Source: Pyrococcus sp. NA2
GTDB taxonomy: Archaea > Methanobacteriota_B > Thermococci > Thermococcales > Thermococcaceae
Length of the DNA stretch: 64,000 nt
Assembly: GCF_000211475.1 (NCBI RefSeq)
Contig: NC_015474.1
Location: 434,001 to 498,000, forward strand
Reading direction: 5' to 3'
Shown: positions 2,357 through 15,016 of the stretch, piece after piece
How the letters are laid out: each line of letters begins with the position of its first letter
How positions within the stretch are numbered: the first letter of the stretch is position 1
Translations under genes and position numbers: made by a program
Notes under the pieces: model-generated
The model's input: only the letters and a program-made list of their open reading frames with translations
What the model was told of the DNA's origin: nothing
Databases searched by the model: none

Positions 2357-4606
2357 TTAATCTTCTTCGGTGTAAGGCGCCGTTATTACCCTCCTTATTT
2401 CCCTCGCTATCTTCTCTCCTATACCTTCAACTTTCATTAGCTCAGGAACGCTAGCTGTAAAAACCTTCTCAACACTTCCAAAGTGCTTCAATAATCTCTT
2501 CGCTAGAGTTGCAGAAACATGAGGTAAACTCTCAACTATCATCCTCTGTCTCTCGCTCAGGGTTAAAGCCTTCTTATCTCCTCTAATCCTAACTTCCTTC
2601 TTTCTCTCTTCCTGTTCCCTCTTGGCCATGAAGAATATGTACTGAGCCGTCTCATCCGGTGTTGACGTGAATATTATTGGAACTCCGAAGTCAACTATCA
2701 CAGAGACTATCGCTCCCCTAATTGCGTTTGGGTGGACATTCCTTATTCCATAGAGTTGCCCTTCAACGATGATTACTGGCCTTGGATACGCTTCCTTAAG
2801 TCTCTTCACCTGATCAAACAACCTACCATCTATAATTGATTGAATGAAGTCGTTTGCAGACTTCCTCTCTATTGCAACCTCGTCACTCACTATGTAGTCC
2901 CCAACATCTAAATTCTTAACCTCAATCTTTGCTCCAAGGATCTTTAGCCTCTTAACAACTTCGCTCCTAAGTTCCCTGCTGTCTATTATCACCTTAATTC
3001 CTTTTGACTCTTCAGCCTTTCTCTCAGGCTTTGTTTCTTCCTCCTCCTTTACTTCCTTTTTAACATATGATTCGAGGGAAATTTGCTTCTCACGCTTGAC
3101 CATTTGACTAACCATCTTTATCGTCTCCCTCATTATCCTTTCCTTTTGCCTTGAACTCCAATAATACGCCTCATCTCTAGTTCCTTGGGCTATTAGGATT
3201 ACAACCCTTCCTGGCCTCTGCCTTCCAGTTCTTCCTCTTCTTTGGACACTTCTTATGGCAGAGGGGACTGGCTCATAAAAGATCACGAGATCAACTTCAG
3301 GAACATCCAAACCTTCCTCACCAACGCTCGTGGCAACTAGGACATTGAATTCTCCTCTCGAGAACATGTCCAGAATTATCTTCTGCTCTCTTTGGCTCAT
3401 TCCCCTGTCATTTTCTCTACTTGCTTGTCCAACGAACCTTCTCGCTTCGATTCCCTCTTTAGTTAGTTCCTCAACAACCTTCTTTGCGGTCTCCCTATAA
3501 TTCGTGAAAACTATTATCTTTGAGTTAGGCTTCTTCTCCAATTGTTCCTTTATTAATTTCTTCAAGACATTCAATTTTGGATGATCAAGCCCAAGTTCCT
3601 TAGCCTGTAAAAGCAGAGCCAAAGCTTTCTTCATCCTCCTATCTAAAAAGAGTTCTTTGCTGGCTCTCGTTGAGCCTGTCTTTGCTTCTTCGTAGAGCTT
3701 TTTTAGATAAACTCTTAAAGCTGATAGACCTTGAGTTTCGAGGAGTTCGATTGCATGATGCAACTTCAGGGCCATTGCATGAAAGAGAAGGTATTTTCTT
3801 AGATCATGATTGCCTTTTGCCATTTCCTCATTTATTATCTGCCCCGCCTTAAGGACTTCCCTTTTTGGAATATCTGGAGAGGAGGAATCGATGAATCCAG
3901 CCTCGGCCAGTGGTTTAAGTGTATCTTTGAGCATCTCTCTTAAGAGTTTTCTAACTTCCTTGTACAGCTCAGGCAACTCGACTTTAACCCACTCAAATTT
4001 AATTCCCTGGACGTATGGTTTAACATCTGGAGAATTCTCGGAGCGATACTCTATGTGTTCTATTCCAAGATTGTCAAGAACTTCCTTTATCTTCTCAGGT
4101 GTGCTCCCTGGTGATGCCGTCAATCCTATTACAAGCGGATTTTTTGCCTGTTTTAGATATTCCCGAGCTATGTAAACGTAAGCATAATTACCAACAGCCC
4201 TGTGAGCCTCATCAAATATTATCAAGGAAACATCCTCAAGACTTATTCTACCTACAAGGAGATCATTCTCAACAGTCTGTGGAGTTGCAATTATAACCTT
4301 TGCTCTTGCCCAAGCTCTTACCCTCTCATTTGGACTTATCTCCCCAGTTAAGGCAACTATCTTCTCGGGTGGAAGATTAAAGAACTTCCTAAAGGTTTCC
4401 GCATGTTGTAGAACAAGAGGTTTTGTTGGGGCCAACATTAGAACTTTCCCACCATACTTATTTAATCTATAATCAGCTATCATCATGGCTATTATCGTCT
4501 TACCAAGTCCAGTGGGCAGAACTATTAAACAATTCCTGTCCTTACACTTTGCATATATCAACTCCTGATACAATCTCGGCTGAAGTAGTTCCTTCCTAAG
4601 GTACAT
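2357..4606 (-). CDS. hef: Hef, archaeal XPF/FANCM-like helicase-nuclease
   Basis: A 749-residue protein with an N-terminal superfamily 2 helicase (Walker A PTGLGKT near residue 31-37, DEAH near 132-135, SAT-equivalent TASPG, motif VI QRRGRTGR). An XPF/ERCC4-type nuclease domain follows, with GDYIVSDEVAIERKSANDF (about 567-586, the GDXnERKX3D active site). A C-terminal tandem helix-hairpin-helix domain ends the protein. Hef processes stalled forks and flap or branched DNA. ATG 4606 fits the family N-terminus; an in-frame GTG at 4615 would overlap the upstream IMPase stop by 4 bp. The gene is last in a three-gene minus-strand unit with DUF63 and IMPase. Its 3' end lies 4 bases from the ACA box of the opposite-strand guide RNA. 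Confidence 0.95.
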   Translation of the reverse strand: MYLRKELLQPRLYQELIYAKCKDRNCLIVLPTGLGKTIIAMMIADYRLNKYGGKVLMLAPTKPLVLQHAETFRKFFNLPPEKIVALTGEISPNERVRAWARAKVIIATPQTVENDLLVGRISLEDVSLIIFDEAHRAVGNYAYVYIAREYLKQAKNPLVIGLTASPGSTPEKIKEVLDNLGIEHIEYRSENSPDVKPYVQGIKFEWVKVELPELYKEVRKLLREMLKDTLKPLAEAGFIDSSSPDIPKREVLKAGQIINEEMAKGNHDLRKYLLFHAMALKLHHAIELLETQGLSALRVYLKKLYEEAKTGSTRASKELFLDRRMKKALALLLQAKELGLDHPKLNVLKKLIKEQLEKKPNSKIIVFTNYRETAKKVVEELTKEGIEARRFVGQASRENDRGMSQREQKIILDMFSRGEFNVLVATSVGEEGLDVPEVDLVIFYEPVPSAIRSVQRRGRTGRQRPGRVVILIAQGTRDEAYYWSSRQKERIMRETIKMVSQMVKREKQISLESYVKKEVKEEEETKPERKAEESKGIKVIIDSRELRSEVVKRLKILGAKIEVKNLDVGDYIVSDEVAIERKSANDFIQSIIDGRLFDQVKRLKEAYPRPVIIVEGQLYGIRNVHPNAIRGAIVSVIVDFGVPIIFTSTPDETAQYIFFMAKREQEERKKEVRIRGDKKALTLSERQRMIVESLPHVSATLAKRLLKHFGSVEKVFTASVPELMKVEGIGEKIAREIRRVITAPYTEED

Positions 4607-4611
4607 CAACT

Positions 4612-5382
4612 TCACTTCTCAATCGAACTTAAAATCATTTCCAGAAGATCTTCATCATTAACGGCAACTAAGTTAACTTTCTCAGTTGCACTGAAGGATA
4701 CCTCTATATCATCCCCCTTGTCATCCTTAATTATGGCCCCTGCCTCTTTCGCTATTATAATTCCAGCGGCAATGTCCGTTGGCCGTAGGTAATTCCGAAT
4801 ATCAACGACGCCATCGAGAGCCCCCCTAGACAAGTACGCCAGCTCCAGGGCTATAGCTCCCAAAGTTCTTGTCCTCTTAACCTTATTAAGTATTCCAATT
4901 CCCCTTCCCGTTGTATAGAAGCTAATTGAAGGACTATCATCGGGTTTCCTAACCTTAAGCTTTTCACCATTTAGATAGGCACCCTGTCCTGGAATTCCTT
5001 CATAGAATCTCTCAAGTACTGGTTCATAGATAAAGGCATATATCGGCTCATTTCCCTTGAAAACTGCAACGCTAACTGCAAAAAATGGAATTCCAGATAT
5101 GAAGTTGTAAGATCCATCCAAGGGATCAATTAAAACTGTGTAATCGCTACCTTGGTCTATAACACCAATCTCTTCACTCACTATGTTAACACCTAGAGCT
5201 TTAAACTTACTTATCACTAGGTTCTCAGCAACCTTATCAACGATCTTTGTTTCGTCTCCGCTTGGACTTATTGAAACCGTCTCTGCCCCTTTTGAACTTC
5301 CAAAGAGAGGCATTACATTATGGTCAAAATCCCTAACTATGTCTATAGCTATCTTTCTCCAAACTTTTACGCCCATCATCAT
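4612..5382 (-). CDS. Inositol monophosphatase / fructose-1,6-bisphosphatase (archaeal class IV)
   Basis: About 254-256 residues with the Mg2+-dependent sugar-phosphatase signatures: SEEIG near residue 69-73, IDPLDGSYNF near 85-94, and a C-terminal LRPTDIAAG motif. Archaeal members hydrolyse both inositol-1-phosphate (di-myo-inositol phosphate solute synthesis) and fructose-1,6-bisphosphate; which reaction dominates here cannot be read from sequence. Three ATG codons occur at the start, so the exact start is uncertain by one or two residues. The start overlaps the DUF63 stop by 4 bp, and the stop nearly touches hef, indicating one transcript. Confidence 0.92.
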   Translation of the reverse strand: MMMGVKVWRKIAIDIVRDFDHNVMPLFGSSKGAETVSISPSGDETKIVDKVAENLVISKFKALGVNIVSEEIGVIDQGSDYTVLIDPLDGSYNFISGIPFFAVSVAVFKGNEPIYAFIYEPVLERFYEGIPGQGAYLNGEKLKVRKPDDSPSISFYTTGRGIGILNKVKRTRTLGAIALELAYLSRGALDGVVDIRNYLRPTDIAAGIIIAKEAGAIIKDDKGDDIEVSFSATEKVNLVAVNDEDLLEMILSSIEK

Positions 5383-6185
5383 ACCCCCATGAGCATTCTT
5401 AGCAGGTTTCTTGTTCCCGGAGCAAAGCCTAGGATGAATATGACCATCCTAATGAAGTCTAATAACTCTTTCTCTTCCCCTTCCTCCTCAAGTTTAAGCA
5501 TGATCCATAGGGCGGTATATAAGACCACGAACTTAAGGACGTACATAACTGCAGCGGTTCCTGTTAAGCCTATTAAAAGCCCTGGAACAACGTGTTGTTC
5601 CCAATACCCCATAAAGTCCACTCCAACGAATGTTGTGGTTGCATCATAAAAGTGAACATAGAAGAGGTAGGAGTTATTCCTAACAATTTGTAGCTTTCTT
5701 GAGAGAATGTAGACAACTAACTCGGCGAGAATTAGGAAGGGAATGAAATACTTGAGTACGATTAAATTGAAACTAACCTTCTGAAGGTTAGCTGATAATG
5801 CGGCAACATCTATTAAAACAAGCCCCCATCCAAAGGAGAGAAAAACTCCCCTCCAATCCTTAAAGAATCTGTGTGATATTATCAATGCTGGGAATGCTAT
5901 TGAAAAAACGAGAAAGTATATTCCTGGAGAGACAGTTATATAGGTTCTAGGAAAAACCCCGGCATCAGTTAAGGCCCTTGTAAAGGCTCCAAATATCATG
6001 TAGGGGATGAGAGCCCTAAAGAAGGCATTGTCTATCTTTATTCTGAGCTTCTTCAGAACTTTATAAACGAGAAGTGTTGCCAGTCCAAGGATTATGGCGT
6101 ATGTAAGGGTATTAACTGGATTATATCCAGTGTTATACTTTATCGGGTCAACAAAGTACCTCCTAAAGAAATCCACCACTCCCAT
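5379..6185 (-). CDS. DUF63 family membrane protein
   Basis: This 268-residue protein has about seven hydrophobic helices spread over its length, a short N-terminal amphipathic stretch (VVDFFRRYFVDP) and a charged C-terminal segment rich in Glu (LKLEEEGEEKELLDF). The family is archaeal and of unknown function. It starts an operon-like run, overlapping IMPase by 4 bp, after a gap of about 60 bp from EF-2. An integral membrane location is clear; a role linked to inositol-phosphate lipid or solute metabolism is possible from the neighbour but not shown. Confidence 0.8.
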   Translation of the reverse strand: MGVVDFFRRYFVDPIKYNTGYNPVNTLTYAIILGLATLLVYKVLKKLRIKIDNAFFRALIPYMIFGAFTRALTDAGVFPRTYITVSPGIYFLVFSIAFPALIISHRFFKDWRGVFLSFGWGLVLIDVAALSANLQKVSFNLIVLKYFIPFLILAELVVYILSRKLQIVRNNSYLFYVHFYDATTTFVGVDFMGYWEQHVVPGLLIGLTGTAAVMYVLKFVVLYTALWIMLKLEEEGEEKELLDFIRMVIFILGFAPGTRNLLRMLMGV

Positions 6186-6245
6186 GCAAACACCAGAACA
6201 AAATATCTCGTATTCAATTTAAAATTTATCGAGGAAAAGAGAGAA

Positions 6246-8444
6246 TCAGAAGAGAGGACAGACATCCTTCTCAGTTGGTGGATTTGGATCGAGTCCCTTC
6301 CTCTGCCTAATCTGCCTTATCACCTGTTGAGCCAGTTCATTTGGAACCTTCTTAAATCCAGCATGCTCTGTGCTCCATAGGGCTCTACCGCTCGTTGCAC
6401 TTCTTATTGAACCTGCGAATCCGAACATCTCAGCAACTGGAGCTTCTGCAATTATCGTCATTACTTCACCCTCTTGCTTCATGTCAACTAGCTGACCTCT
6501 CCTCTGGGTTATTTCCCTGCTAACAGCACCCATGTATTCATATGGAATGTTGATTATTACCTTCTGGTATGGCTCGTAGAGAACTGGATTGCTCTTCATC
6601 ATTGCACAGTGAATTGCAGTTCTTATTGCTGGGTAGATCTGAGCTGGACCTCTGTGGACGTTGTCCTCGTGAACCTGGGCGTCTATCAGTCTGACTATTA
6701 CCTTCATAACTGGTTCCTTGGCAAGTGGTCCCTCGTCCATAGCCTGGTGGAATCCATCGATTAGCAGATCCATAACCTCATTCAAATACTGGACACCCTT
6801 CGTGTTGTCTATGAACATGTTTCCGTTGTAGATGTCGACTATACCTCTAGCTATTTCGTAGTCCATTCCAAGCTCTGCAAGCTTCTTCGCAACTTCCTTC
6901 GGATTCTTAACCCTACCTTCTGGGATTATTCCCTCCTTGATTGCGTTGTATATCTCGTCTGGCATTGGCTCAACTACTATGTAGAACCTGTTGTGCCTGT
7001 TTGGTGACTTTCCTTCAACTATTGGACTTGGCTTGGTTATGCTCTCTCTGTAAACTACGATTGGCTCTGAAACCTCTATGTCAATTCCCCAGTCTCTCTT
7101 GAGCTTGTACAGCTTAACTTCAAGGTGGAGCTCACCCATACCGCTGAGGAGGTGCTGTCCAGTTTCTTCATCGATCTTAACGTGTAAGGTTGGGTCTTCT
7201 TTAGCGAGTTGCCTTAGAGCTTCAATTAGCCTTGGTAAGTCCTTAACGTTCTTAGCCTCTATGGCAACTGTAACTACAGGCTCACTAACGTAGTGCAGTG
7301 CCTCAAATGGCTCAATTGGTTCCTCAGCTACGGTTTCACCAGCCATTGCGTCTCTAAGACCAGTAACTGCAACTATGTTTCCAGCTGGGACGGCCTCCAT
7401 GTTTATCCTCTCTGGACCCATGTAGATACCTACCTGCTGTATCCTGGCCTTTCTCTTTGTGTTGATTAGGTAAACCTCCTGACCACTCCTCACAGTTCCG
7501 CTCCAAACTCTTCCCGTTGCAACTTCACCAGCATGCTTGTCGATGATTATCTTGGTTACAACCATGACCATCTTACCCTTTGGATCACAGTTAAGCATTG
7601 CCTGTCCAACGTCGCTGTTTATGTCTCCCTGCCAGAGGTGTGGAATCCTGTACTTCTGGGCCTCAATTGGGTTTGGTAAATGCCTAACTACCATGTCAAG
7701 AACTACAACGTGAAGTGGAGCTCTCTGCCTAAGGGTCTTATTGTCACCCTTAAGGGTTAATTCAATTATCTCGTTGAACTTCACACCGGTTCTCTTCATG
7801 AATGGAACGCTGAGAGCCCAGTTGTAGTATGCACTTCCAAAGGCAACACTACCGTCTTCAACCTTGACCATCCACTGCTTCTTGTACTCCTCGGGGGCGT
7901 ACCTCTGGATCAACCTATTGACGTCCATGATTATCTTTGAGAATCTCTCCATCATCTGCTGTGGAGTGAGCTTCAGCTCCCTGATTAGCCTATCAACCTT
8001 GTTTATGAAAAGAACTGGCTTAACGTATTCCCTAAGGGCCTGCCTAACAACGGTTTCCGTCTGTGGCATGACTCCTTCCACTGCGTCAACCACTATTATG
8101 ACACCGTCTATTGCTCTCATTGCTCTAGTGACGTCACCACCGAAGTCGACGTGCCCAGGAGTGTCGATGAGGTTAATTAGGTAGTCCTTGCCCTCGTAGT
8201 TGTGTACCATTGAAACGTTTGCAGCGTTGATCGTTATTCCTCTGGCCTGCTCCTGCTCGTCGAAGTCGAGAACTAACTGCTTACCAGCGAGCTCTTCACT
8301 TATCATTCCTGCCCCTGCAAGGAGGTTATCACTGAGCGTCGTTTTACCATGGTCAATGTGAGCGGCAATTCCAATATTCCTGATCCTTTCAGGTTGAAGC
8401 ATGAGCTCCTTAATCTTCGCAATCATTTCCTCTCTCCTACCCAT
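6246..8444 (-). CDS. fusA: Translation elongation factor EF-2
   Basis: A 732-residue GTPase that drives ribosomal translocation. The G1 motif AHIDHGKTT lies at about residues 28-36, with DTPGHVDF (G3) and NKVD (G4). The domain IV loop [10 protein letters not shown] carries the His that is modified to diphthamide in archaea and eukaryotes. The longer open frame begins with GTG at 8453, but ATG 8444 is chosen because GAGGTGGT precedes it. It is full length and ends KDVCPLF. It is monocistronic as far as can be seen, with its own strong TATA element upstream. Confidence 0.97.
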
Positions 8445-10862: not shown

Positions 10863-11761
10863 CTTGTGGCTTTGCCTATAGGAGAATTAGGGATAAATAC
10901 CCTCAACTGCATAGCAACGTCGTGCAAGATGCTATGAATTTGGCAATTGAGATCTACCGCTCTTGGATTAAGAACGGAGGGGAATTTCCAGAGTTTCACT
11001 CCGATGTTATTTACTTTAAAGGCGTTGATGTTAGGATAGAAAATAACGGATTGGTTGTCCCTTTAATGGGGAGGAGGGTTTATTTGCCACTATACGTTCC
11101 AAAGAAGTATAAAAAGTACCTTCAATACAAACACGGCAGAGTCATCATAAAACGTATTGACAAAGATTGGTATGCGTTGATCTCGGTCAATGTCCCAGAA
11201 AAAGAACCAATAAAGCCCATTGGAACAATTGGAGTGGACTTAGGATACTATAACTTGTTAGTGGCAAGCTAGCTTTGCCTTATAGACTATCTTTGATATA
11301 AGGTCTGCATAGCTCCAACGGTGTAAAATTTTCCTCAATAGCTTCGGTCTTCTTTGCTTCTTTAACCCCTCCAGCCTTTCTAGAACAATCGCCCTATTTA
11401 ACTGCTCTTGCCTTTAAAACAAGTCCCTTAGCAATTTTATGGTTTAAATCATTGACAAACTTTCTGTCTTTGTGGTTTGTCTTAGCATAAATACCGAACT
11501 TTTTCATAAGCCTCTGTTGCCTTCCCGCAGTTAGCTTTTCCAAATGTTCCTTGAGGGACTTCAAAGACATGTTCGAACTGCGGTTACTACGTTAGAACTT
11601 TCAAAGATAATGGGGTGTTTAGGTGTCCAAGATGCGGTTTTGTGGCTGATAGGGATTATAACGCCTCAATAAATATTGCGAAAAAAGGTTTGGAAGAATT
11701 GGAAAAGCGGGCCTTCCTCCCCGCCCAAAAGGGCAAGGCCTCCAGCCCGCGGAGGAGATGA
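10863..11761 (+). pseudogene. Scrambled IS200/IS605-family TnpB relic with inverted middle segment
   Basis: Three pieces of a TnpB are visible. From 10863 to about 11270, plus strand, the frame reads CGFAYRRIRDKYPQLHSNVV and continues to GTIGVDLGYYNLLVAS, the RuvC-I aspartate region. From about 11271 to 11572 the sequence reads on the minus strand as SLKSLKEHLEKLT ... NHKIAKGLVLKA and IVLERLEGLKKQ (RuvC-II Glu) to VYKAKLA, with one frameshift. From about 11573 to 11761, plus strand again, it gives CSNCGYYV, CPRCGFVADRDYNASINI (zinc ribbon and RuvC-III Asp). The natural order would be a single plus-strand gene, so the middle was inverted, with small losses at both joints. The N-terminus is also missing. 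Confidence 0.85.
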
Positions 11762-12040: not shown

Positions 12041-12278
12041 ATGATTGGTGTTATTTTTGCAATTCCCCTTGGCATTCTAACATTTCTTGCATTCGTTGGA
12101 TACAATATGGTAACACCACCTAAAAAAGTAGGGGAGTGGACGCCCAGGGATCTTGGACTCGAATATAAGGATATCGAGTTCAAGAGCAGGGATGGAATTA
12201 AGCTTAGAGGATGGTGGATAGATAGGGGCAGAAAACTTTATAAATTTCATTGTGTGTCATTATGTGTTGGTGTGTGTC

Positions 12279-12908
12279 GTGGAGAGGTTGCTCACGCCGA
12301 GGCAGGTTGCTGAAATCCTTGGTGTGAGTTTTATTACAATTAAAAGGTGGATTTATTCTGGAAAAATAAAGGCAGTAAAGCTTCCAACGGGCAAGTGGAG
12401 GATTCCAGAGAGTGAGGTGAAGAGGATTCTTGGTGAAAAACCCCCCGAAGAAACAAGAGCAGTCATTTACGCTAGGGTTTCAAGTTCAGACCAGAGGAAA
12501 GACCTTGAGAGGCAGGTTGAATACCTCACGAATTACTGTTCAGCGAAAGGCTACAAGCTCGTCCAAGTTATTACTGACGTAGCTTCAGGCTTGAATACGA
12601 GGCGTAGGGGACTACAAAAACTCTTCAAGCTTGTTTCTGAGAGAGAAGTTGATGTAGTCCTTGTAACCTACAAGGACAGGCTGACGAGGTTCGGTTATGA
12701 GTACCTCGAATACTTCTTTCACCAATTCGGCGTGAGGATTGAAGCAATACACGGGGAGGAAAAGAAGAATGCTCAACAAGAATTCGTTGAGGACTTGATT
12801 GCAATAGTAACTTCCTTTGCTGGCAAATTGTATGGAGCTCGTTCCCACAAAAAGAAAAAACTCGTCCAAGGCTTCAAGCAATTGTTGAAAGAGGTTGAAG
12901 GAGAATGA
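12279..12908 (+). CDS. tnpA: IS607 TnpA, MerR-HTH serine recombinase
   Basis: About 209 residues from GTG 12279. An N-terminal MerR-like helix-turn-helix (LLTPRQVAEILGVSFITIKR, about residues 4-23, with wing to ~45) precedes a small serine-recombinase catalytic domain (VIYARVSSSDQRKDLERQ, catalytic Ser near residue 68, and YKDRLTRFGYEYLEYFF). This HTH-first order is typical of IS607 transposases, as opposed to resolvases. The frame extends upstream to ATG 12252, but that extension runs through the TG-rich repeats and is Cys/Val-rich, so it is probably not translated. The stop overlaps the tnpB ATG by 4 bp. Confidence 0.95.
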   Translation: MERLLTPRQVAEILGVSFITIKRWIYSGKIKAVKLPTGKWRIPESEVKRILGEKPPEETRAVIYARVSSSDQRKDLERQVEYLTNYCSAKGYKLVQVITDVASGLNTRRRGLQKLFKLVSEREVDVVLVTYKDRLTRFGYEYLEYFFHQFGVRIEAIHGEEKKNAQQEFVEDLIAIVTSFAGKLYGARSHKKKKLVQGFKQLLKEVEGE

Positions 12909-14203
12909 GGATTGCAAGAACGGTAGTGCTGAAGTCTGAAAGACTTCCGAAAAAAGTTTTCAAGGTATTCATCGAGCTTGAAGGAATGTACCGAGAAATG
13001 CTCCTCCAGACTGTCCAGTTTGCAGTCCAGAACGAAATCACCTCCTTTGTAAAACTGAAGGCCGAAAAGTATTCCTTCTTGAGGAAGCTTTACCCCCAAC
13101 TCCCGAGCCATTACGCACACACGGTTTGCCAGGATTCAGTTACGAGGGCAAAAAGCTTCTTGAAGAGGAAAAGGAAAGGCCTCGTCAAAAAGGAGTATCC
13201 AGAAGTTAGGAGTGTTTCAATCTGGCTCGATGACCACCTGTGGCGTGCTGGGCTAACTTTCATAAAAATTGCCACGCACAAGGGTTGGATAGAGGTTGGT
13301 CTCGAGGGGCACAAGCATTATTGGAAGACGGTAAACTCGGGCTGGAGGATGGCTTCACAAGCGAGGGTAAAGCTTGAGAAGAAGGAGAGGAGGTTAGTTG
13401 TTTACTTGACGTTTTACAAGGATGTCGAACCGCGTGAGGCAAAATCGTGGATTTCCGTTGATGTGAACGAGGATAATGTTACTGCACTTGTAGATTTTAC
13501 GCCAGTAATTTTTGAGACGGGCCAGAAAAGGATGACCCTCGGCTATTATTACAGGAGGAAAAGGATTCAAAGGAAGTGGGATAAAAAGCTTGGCCCAAGG
13601 AGTGGGAGGAAGAGGAAAATCTTGGGGAGGCTTCACGAAAATGATAAGAAGAAAGACATTCGTAACAAGCTTGCAAAAATAATTGTAGAGGAAGCGAGGA
13701 GGAGGAACGCTGGAATAGTCTTGGAAAGGCTTCCGAAGAACGTTCCGAGAAGGATGCTGGAAGGGATTAGTGATAAACAACTCCGCCACAGGATTTATCA
13801 ATCAGCGTTTCTTGGAATCCAGAAAGCTATCGAGAGGAAGGCGAAAGAATACGGAATCCCAGTAATAAAGGTGAACCCGAGGAATACTTCAAGGATTTGT
13901 CCCGTTCACAATGCTGTCGTGAAGTATGAGAATGGTTCTCGTTTTGGAGTTTGTAGTGCTGGTGGTGAAGTCTGGCATCGGGACGTTCTTGCTGTTTGGA
14001 ATTTGTATTTGAGGGCTCTCCAGAGTGATGGGGGCTCTGCCCCGAGCTCTGGGGAGCTGTTCGTAGATGGGAGGCCCGTGCCGTTGGCCTCGACTGCCAC
14101 CAATGAAGCCATCTGGATTGAAAAGTCCAGATGGCTGAGGTGGAACTCCCTACCGCTGGCATTGATACAAACTGATACGCTCCCACACAAAACGAAGCGG
14201 TAG
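12905..14203 (+). CDS. tnpB: IS607 TnpB, RNA-guided nuclease
   Basis: The 432-residue protein has the RuvC-type catalytic triad in order: Asp near residue 186 (SWISVDVNED), Glu near 274 (IVLERLP) and Asp near 360 (EVWHRDVLAVWNL). A basic N-terminal half and a reduced zinc finger (CPVH at 332-335 and a Cys at 350, rather than a full four-Cys set) flank these. TnpB proteins are RNA-guided DNA nucleases that promote transposon retention. The C-terminal coding region overlaps the putative omegaRNA hairpins. The frame is intact. The start ATG overlaps the tnpA stop. Confidence 0.93.
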   Translation: MRIARTVVLKSERLPKKVFKVFIELEGMYREMLLQTVQFAVQNEITSFVKLKAEKYSFLRKLYPQLPSHYAHTVCQDSVTRAKSFLKRKRKGLVKKEYPEVRSVSIWLDDHLWRAGLTFIKIATHKGWIEVGLEGHKHYWKTVNSGWRMASQARVKLEKKERRLVVYLTFYKDVEPREAKSWISVDVNEDNVTALVDFTPVIFETGQKRMTLGYYYRRKRIQRKWDKKLGPRSGRKRKILGRLHENDKKKDIRNKLAKIIVEEARRRNAGIVLERLPKNVPRRMLEGISDKQLRHRIYQSAFLGIQKAIERKAKEYGIPVIKVNPRNTSRICPVHNAVVKYENGSRFGVCSAGGEVWHRDVLAVWNLYLRALQSDGGSAPSSGELFVDGRPVPLASTATNEAIWIEKSRWLRWNSLPLALIQTDTLPHKTKR

Positions 14204-14213
14204 GGAGAAACGG
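14107..14213 (+). ncRNA. Putative omegaRNA scaffold at the IS607 right end
   Basis: Two strong hairpins lie at the 3' end of tnpB. One is 14107-14117 with 14126-14136 (AGCCATCTGGA / TCCAGATGGCT, 8-base loop). The other is 14146-14157 with 14196-14207 (CTCCCTACCGCT / AGCGGTAGGGAG, 38-base loop). They end 6 bases before the element boundary. In TnpB systems the omegaRNA is read from the tnpB 3' end and right end, with the adjoining flank as guide. Here the guide would begin at 14214 with AAGCGAAAAAACTATAG. The 5' limit of the RNA is not visible. Its existence is inferred from family knowledge plus these structures. Confidence 0.6.
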
Positions 14214-14904
14214 AAGCGAAAAAACTATAGTAGTCCTACATGGATACACGGCAAGCAGGTGGAACGAGACATGCATGAAACCAGCAATCAAGATAATTGG
14301 AGAGCTAGGATACAACATCCTAACATTTGATTTTAGAGCCCATGGAGAAAGTGAAGGGAGCAAAACAACTATTGGAGACAAAGAAATTTTAGACCTAATG
14401 GGAGCAATAGACTGGCTCATCAAAAATACTAGAACCAAAAGAATAGCTCTAATTGGATTCTCAATGGGAGCCATGGTTACGATAAGAGGGCTTGCCGAGG
14501 ATGAGAGAACTTGCTGTGGAGTAGCAGACAGCCCGCCTATATACATTGATAGAACTGGAGCAAGAGGAATTAAATACTTTGCAGAATTGCCAGAGTCTCT
14601 CTATCCACTGATAAAGCCATTCATAAAGCTTTTCAGCGGAGCTAGGGAGGTAAACATAATAGAATACGCAGAGAAAGTCAGAAAGCCTCTTCTGATTATT
14701 GCAGGTAGTAAGGATCCCCTTGTAACCATGGATGAAGTTAGGGACTTCTATGAACGGAATAGGGATATCAATGGTGGATTAGAGCTCTGGACCACAGATG
14801 CTCCTCATGTGAAGAGTATAGAACTGTACCAAGAGGAATGGAAGAACAAAGTAGAAGGATTCCTGAGAAAACATTTGGACTCTCCCTGATTTTTCCATGG
14901 ATAA

Positions 14905-14938: not shown

Positions 14939-15016
14939 GGGGCCGTAGGGTAGCTTGGCCTATCCTGCGGGCTTCGGGAGCCCGTGACCCGGGTTCAAAT
15001 CCCGGCGGCCCCACCA
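14939..15016 (+). tRNA. tRNA-Pro (anticodon CGG)
   Basis: A full cloverleaf is seen. The acceptor stem GGGGCCG (14939-14945) pairs with CGGCCCC (15006-15012). The D-arm is G-rich, and the anticodon stem CGGGC/GCCCG encloses the loop TTCGGGA with anticodon CGG. The T-arm contains GGGTTCAAATCCC, the discriminator is A 15013, and an encoded CCA is present at 15014-15016. There is no intron. It reads Pro codon CCG. Its 3' two-thirds overlaps, on the opposite strand, the end of the fucose-isomerase-like frame. Confidence 0.97.

Follow-up and report, generated by a model that had tools for sequence, protein, structure and literature searches.

A conserved RNA structure at the right end of a Pyrococcus IS607-family element as the predicted omegaRNA of its TnpB

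The right end of an IS607-type element in Pyrococcus sp. NA2 very probably specifies the 3' part of the omegaRNA (reRNA) of its IS607-family TnpB and would, with it, provide guide-directed retention after excision, as in other TnpB elements. The element lies in the window, by which we mean the whole 64,000-nucleotide stretch of DNA that was analysed, and its features are given in window coordinates in Table 1. Literature searches on IS607 with Pyrococcus and TnpB, and on stand-alone TnpB guides, returned no description of the element among open-licence papers.

Table 1. Features of the element and its flanks
Feature	Position	Strand	Details
Host alpha/beta hydrolase gene, split by the element	12041..14889 (parts 12041-12226, 14214-14889)	+	
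Left flank plus core, GATAGGGG	12221..12228	+	last three bases, GGG, are the inferred TAM
IS607-type element	12227..14213	+	core GG left 12227-12228; core GG right 14212-14213
Archaeal TATA-like box, CTTTATAAA, left end	12235..12245	+	sequence inspection; presumed tnpA-tnpB-omegaRNA promoter
tnpA, IS607-type serine recombinase	12252..12908	+	NCBIfam NF033518 (transpos_IS607), 237.5 bits (cut-off 110)
tnpB, 432 aa	12905..14203	+	Pfam PF07282 above cut-off; NCBIfam TIGR01766
omegaRNA stem A	14016..14056	+	outer arms 14016-14025/14047-14056, inner GGGGC/GCCCC; covariation, helices 1-2
omegaRNA stem B	14071..14091	+	loop with CCGTT at 14081-14085; helix 3, 4/6 pairs changed on both sides
Predicted pseudoknot, CCGUU x AACGG	14081..14213	+	14081-14085 with 14209-14213, including the GG core; helix 4
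Helix around hairpin C, CCACC/GGTGG	14097..14143	+	14097-14101/14139-14143; helix 5, one pair changed on both sides
Hairpin C (first hairpin)	14107..14136	+	13 bp in the RNA; helix 6, 8/13 pairs changed on both sides
Hairpin D (second hairpin)	14146..14207	+	helix 7, 6/11 pairs changed on both sides
Predicted guide, AAGCGAAAAAACTATAG	14214..14230	+	host gene sequence; position by homology

RESULTS

How the element sits in its host gene defines its ends. Homologous copies in other Thermococcaceae can be aligned with the window from approximately 12226 onward, and position 14213 is exactly the last base that they share. When the flanks are joined (GATAGG+GG to AAGCG), a 287-amino-acid hydrolase is read in frame, with no gap at the join relative to intact sister-species orthologues, and the empty donor site becomes ATAGGGG/AAGCGAAAAAAC. 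The frame is lost if one or two G residues are removed from the join, and the insertions at loci L018 and L121 have the same requirement for one full GG. Thus, the core is the last GG, and the G that precedes it belongs to the target. With GG at both ends and three insertions in agreement, the element shows the IS607 trait of crossover at GG without target duplication. Moreover, the TATA-like box at the left end is retained in most full and RNA-only copies.

The proteins agree with the family assignment. TnpA contains the Pfam Resolvase and HTH_17 domains with an N-terminal HTH, as expected of IS607, and its gene overlaps the start of tnpB. TnpB scored 79.3 against TIGR01766 (cut-off, 32) and 99.3 against NF040570 (guided_TnpB), just below the cut-off of 100. 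Direct comparison to PDB sequences gave weak Cas12 matches only. An AlphaFold model of TnpB (mean pLDDT, 81.5), in turn, was matched by Foldseek to AsCas12f, ISFba1 TnpB, and ISDra2 TnpB with E values of 1e-17 to 1e-10. The RuvC triad D186/E274/D360 is intact and is invariant in 15 homologues, and the standard four-cysteine pattern of the zinc ribbon is incomplete in this TnpB clade. The model is structured up to about residue 372, and residues 374 to 393 and 416 to 432 are predicted to be disordered. Stem A of the omegaRNA starts at residue 371, and thus the C-terminal tail of the protein is largely a by-product of readthrough of the RNA gene.

The source genome contains a single intact copy of the element plus a decayed right-end remnant, a copy number from which recent activity does not follow. 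Perhaps the omegaRNA is real and TnpB no longer serves as a retention nuclease, either because it is a relic or because it has been repurposed for RNA-guided repression. The copy number, the remnant, and the altered zinc ribbon would fit such a history. The reading frame is open, however, the catalytic triad and the RNA with its predicted pseudoknot are intact, and the element lies within an otherwise intact gene that excision would restore. We therefore consider loss of the nuclease role unlikely.

Further features were noted in the window, elsewhere in the source genome, and at another locus. The remnant (G000:C1:1599699-1599898; L057) retains the hairpin D arms and AAACGG, has lost most of stem B and all of hairpin C, and is followed by a different 3' flank. 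Another IS607-like element at 524613-525939 (G000:C1; L002, L180) encodes a TnpB that is 38% identical, has a left flank of AGG rather than GGG, and has its own right-end RNA (25 bits). Within the window, a 116-amino-acid open frame at 10922-11272 resembles the middle of a TnpB, has a RuvC-I-like motif (IGVDLGYYNLLVAS) and no Pfam match, and is possibly a decayed tnpB. A likely tRNA gene (Rfam tmRNA/tRNA-clan match) lies at 14939-15016, just 3' of the interrupted hydrolase gene. Finally, two right ends at 4435-6300 of locus L012 share a terminal hairpin but face opposite ways, and one of the two belongs to a different TnpB.

What lies at the right end is a structured RNA. When the surrounding 4 kb were searched for inverted repeats, two perfect hairpins were the only ones found, and these are the long 11- and 12-bp hairpins that a sequence-only reading had placed over the end of tnpB. 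The first (arms 14107-14117/14126-14136) has an 8-nt loop and the second (arms 14146-14157/14196-14207) has a 38-nt loop; both are 100% complementary, and the tnpB stop codon lies within the 3' arm of the second. That the hairpins stop six bases short of the element end also held once the end was set at 14213 by homologous copies. The 114 nt holding both hairpins fold with -49.4 kcal/mol (z = -8.6), and none of 200 shuffles was as good. The structured region is larger than first noted, as it begins at 14016, some 90 nt further upstream, and the two hairpins are only its 3' half. The predicted RNA is about 200 nt long (14016-14213), with extra stems and a candidate pseudoknot in which the element's five terminal bases take part. 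Like an omegaRNA, it overlaps tnpB and stops at the element boundary.

Covariation was evaluated in 13 aligned right ends, drawn from the Thermococcales and from the Desulfurococcales/Thermoproteota, with seven helices scored. Pairing was retained in 95.5% of 741 cells, and 27 of the 58 pairs had changes on both sides, a count reached by 0 of 500 shuffles. When the partners were slid by 1 to 3 columns, pairing fell to 34 to 48%. We regard covariation in the aligned sequences as decisive for an RNA structure that extends from Thermococcales to Desulfurococcales, and thus across two archaeal phyla. Unrelated structure in other copies had been named beforehand as grounds to abandon the omegaRNA; instead, the same structure recurs throughout the Thermococcales copies and their Desulfurococcales relatives. 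The pseudoknot differs from the other helices in that it is nearly invariant (96.9% of cells paired) and so has no compensatory support. It is proposed from complementarity plus precedent in ISDra2 and ISXfa1.

Stable stem-loops at the 3' end of a gene might instead be an intrinsic terminator or a stabiliser of the tnpB mRNA. The structure, however, is followed by a run of A rather than a run of T, its CCGTT loop and 3' AACGG are conserved, and it persists in copies without tnpB. Moreover, its homologues in Pyrococcus abyssi are processed small RNAs with sizes that imply 3' ends beyond the element. Covariation and the RNA-only copies lead us to reject a terminator or stabiliser, which we consider exceedingly improbable.

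Alternatively, the hairpins could be DNA sites by which TnpA recognizes the ends, without a role as RNA. In the copies L018, L019, and L121, the hairpin D loop contains significant inverted copies of left-end repeats (e.g., TCATTGTGTGTAGG) that are possible TnpA sites; in the window copy, the inverted left-end repeat in that loop was not significant (TTGTGTG only, 202/500 shuffles). A loop motif leaves unexplained the compensatory changes in five helices and the presence of stems A and B 120 to 200 nt from the end. IS607 elements are described as lacking terminal inverted repeats (PMC6188088), and P. abyssi transcribes homologous sequences into RNA. Again on covariation and the RNA-only copies, we reject the idea that the hairpins are TnpA sites only, which is very unlikely, but the two roles may coexist in hairpin D.

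If the right end encodes an omegaRNA, the guide should come from flanking DNA. The sequence 3' of the element end is different at every independent insertion, and in the window the guide proposed by the sequence-only reading does directly follow 14213. That reading had also looked to the left side for a target-adjacent motif (TAM) ending in GG. The left flank, GATAGG+GG, bears this out, but the claim was understated, as the motif appears to be GGG. A G is found at -3, before the GG core, in 40 of 42 left ends of this lineage with L155 re-anchored (39 of 42 by script). In a second lineage, also from the Thermococcales, 9/9 left flanks have G there, whereas 3/3 have A in a third, which comprises sRkB, sRkC, and the source genome's other element. 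At the right end, the -3 position is C in nearly all copies examined; L110 reads AAAGGG. The window copy ends in CGG, and thus a single base of the motif distinguishes its inserted site from its empty site. A genome search allowing up to three mismatches to GGG plus guide found only the element's own right junction, and the single mismatch there is the TAM base.

From the insertion flanks, we infer that the TAM is GGG, the same as the TAM measured for ISXfa1. The preference for GGG could instead stem from target choice by TnpA. A 2013 study of IS607 transposases, however, found insertion flanks with little obvious pattern besides the core dinucleotide (PMC4058570), and for that reason the strong preference at -3 may reflect TnpB-based retention.

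Relatives of the RNA have already been detected in P. abyssi. A covariance model built on the right ends matches four ncRNAs of genome G001 at their published coordinates, namely, sRkB (E = 1.3e-11), sRkC (2.9e-10), sRk52 (2.5e-7), and sRk48 (1.8e-6), and these matches are part of the reason that we take G001 to be P. abyssi. All four end in AACGG at an element end. When reported 5' ends are added to RNA sizes, which are approximate as read from gels, the 3' ends would fall past the element end by 9 nt for sRkB (216 nt), 12 nt for sRkC (220 nt), and 14 nt for sRk52 (190 nt). Judged by model match and end sequence, sRk48, sRk52, sRkB, and sRkC (L176-L179) are IS607-type omegaRNAs. The RNAs themselves were demonstrated by Northern blotting and CR-RT-PCR in a study that also reported covariation, BRE/TATA promoters, and primary transcripts that are processed into shorter RNAs with a 5' monophosphate (PMC3124441). 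That study noted a link to IS607 OrfB 3' ends, predates omegaRNAs, and does not use the name. The P. abyssi ncRNAs differ from the window RNA in that they are stand-alone loci with their own promoters, in two sister lineages, and sRk52, sRkB, and sRkC bind L7Ae (PMC3124441). No other paper naming sRk52 was found among open-licence papers.

Copies without protein genes are abundant. Three Desulfurococcales/Thermoproteota genomes (G119, G120, and G121) have 38 to 44 copies of the RNA each by the model (counts of 38, 42, and 44) and few full-length TnpB homologues. Among 40 loci from G119 and G120 (L135-L174, with L168 cut by a contig end), full-length tnpB is present in five (L135, L136, L137, L140, and L155). 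Most of the remainder are approximately 230 to 350 nt long: GGG flanks the left end, a TATA-like box and the scaffold follow, and the 3' flank of each is unique. The structure of the RNA-only copies still covaries (0/500 shuffles), and thus selection acts on the RNA and not on protein coding. Similar elements of about 260 to 280 nt also occur in Thermococcales (L047, L128, L131, and L132).

DISCUSSION

How the system would operate can be proposed from known TnpB elements. A transcript from the left-end promoter would pass through tnpA-tnpB, and TnpB or a host nuclease would trim it to a scaffold of about 200 nt ending in AAACGG plus a host-derived guide of about 10 to 16 nt. A TnpB-type pseudoknot would arise from pairing of AACGG, which includes the GG recombination core, with the CCGUU of the stem B loop. 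TnpB would then cut guide-matching DNA that adjoins GGG, and the inserted element would be spared because its own right end reads CGG. Excision by TnpA would leave the rejoined ATAGGGG/AAGCG open to cutting, and the element would be regained when the break is repaired from a sister copy.

The closest comparison is ISXfa1, an IS607 element of Xylella, in which the TnpB TAM was measured as GGG, the scaffold takes in the right-flanking core base, and a pseudoknot is required (PMC10711439). ISXfa1 and the window copy share TnpA and TnpB of IS607 type and a GG core, and the window copy is predicted to share the GGG motif, a core base as part of the scaffold, and the pseudoknot as well, but ISXfa1 is bacterial and its reRNA of about 150 nt has three stem-loops, whereas here a scaffold of about 200 nt has two long hairpins. 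ISFba1 likewise pairs an IS607 TnpB with a right-end RNA, one derived from RAGATH-18 (PMC11061315; PDB 8iaz), and its TnpB matches ours in fold (E = 7e-13). The ISFba1 TAM is AGGAG, however, and a search of 14010-14230 at E up to 1 matched no Rfam family, RAGATH-18 included. With ISDra2 TnpB-omegaRNA, the likeness lies in the RuvC triad, a scaffold adjoining the guide (with a pseudoknot that is predicted for the window copy), and overlap with the tnpB end (PDB 8h1j, 8exa; PMC10097598), but ISDra2 is an IS200/IS605 element that has a Y1 transposase and recognizes another target motif. SisTnpB1 of Sulfolobus islandicus is also a TnpB of an archaeal hyperthermophile with two hairpins near the 3' end (PMC10640517), but it is of IS200/IS605 type with a TAM of TTTAA.

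Why the RNA occurs so often without tnpB invites speculation. In several hyperthermophilic archaea, the omegaRNA may have become an amplified, RNA-only mobile element that acquires its own guide and is served in trans by a few TnpA/TnpB copies, such that one nuclease works with dozens of genome-encoded guides, each protecting its own element. The orphan ncRNAs sRk48, sRk52, sRkB, and sRkC of P. abyssi would then be examples that are expressed. We regard the case for and against this proposal as evenly balanced.

The principle of a transposon-encoded guide RNA is already known. Here, it is well supported that a deeply conserved archaeal RNA family carries it, also in the form of dozens of RNA-only elements. 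The window would provide a complete hyperthermophile set for an IS607 TnpB, from the protein and its RNA to the guide, the TAM, and the natural target, in which self and nonself differ by one base, with activity predicted from these parts. Moreover, Pyrococcus small RNAs of a class that had lacked an assignment are accounted for as guide RNAs. Finally, in genomes where one TnpB possibly serves dozens of guide-RNA genes, trans-acting transposon retention would become directly testable.
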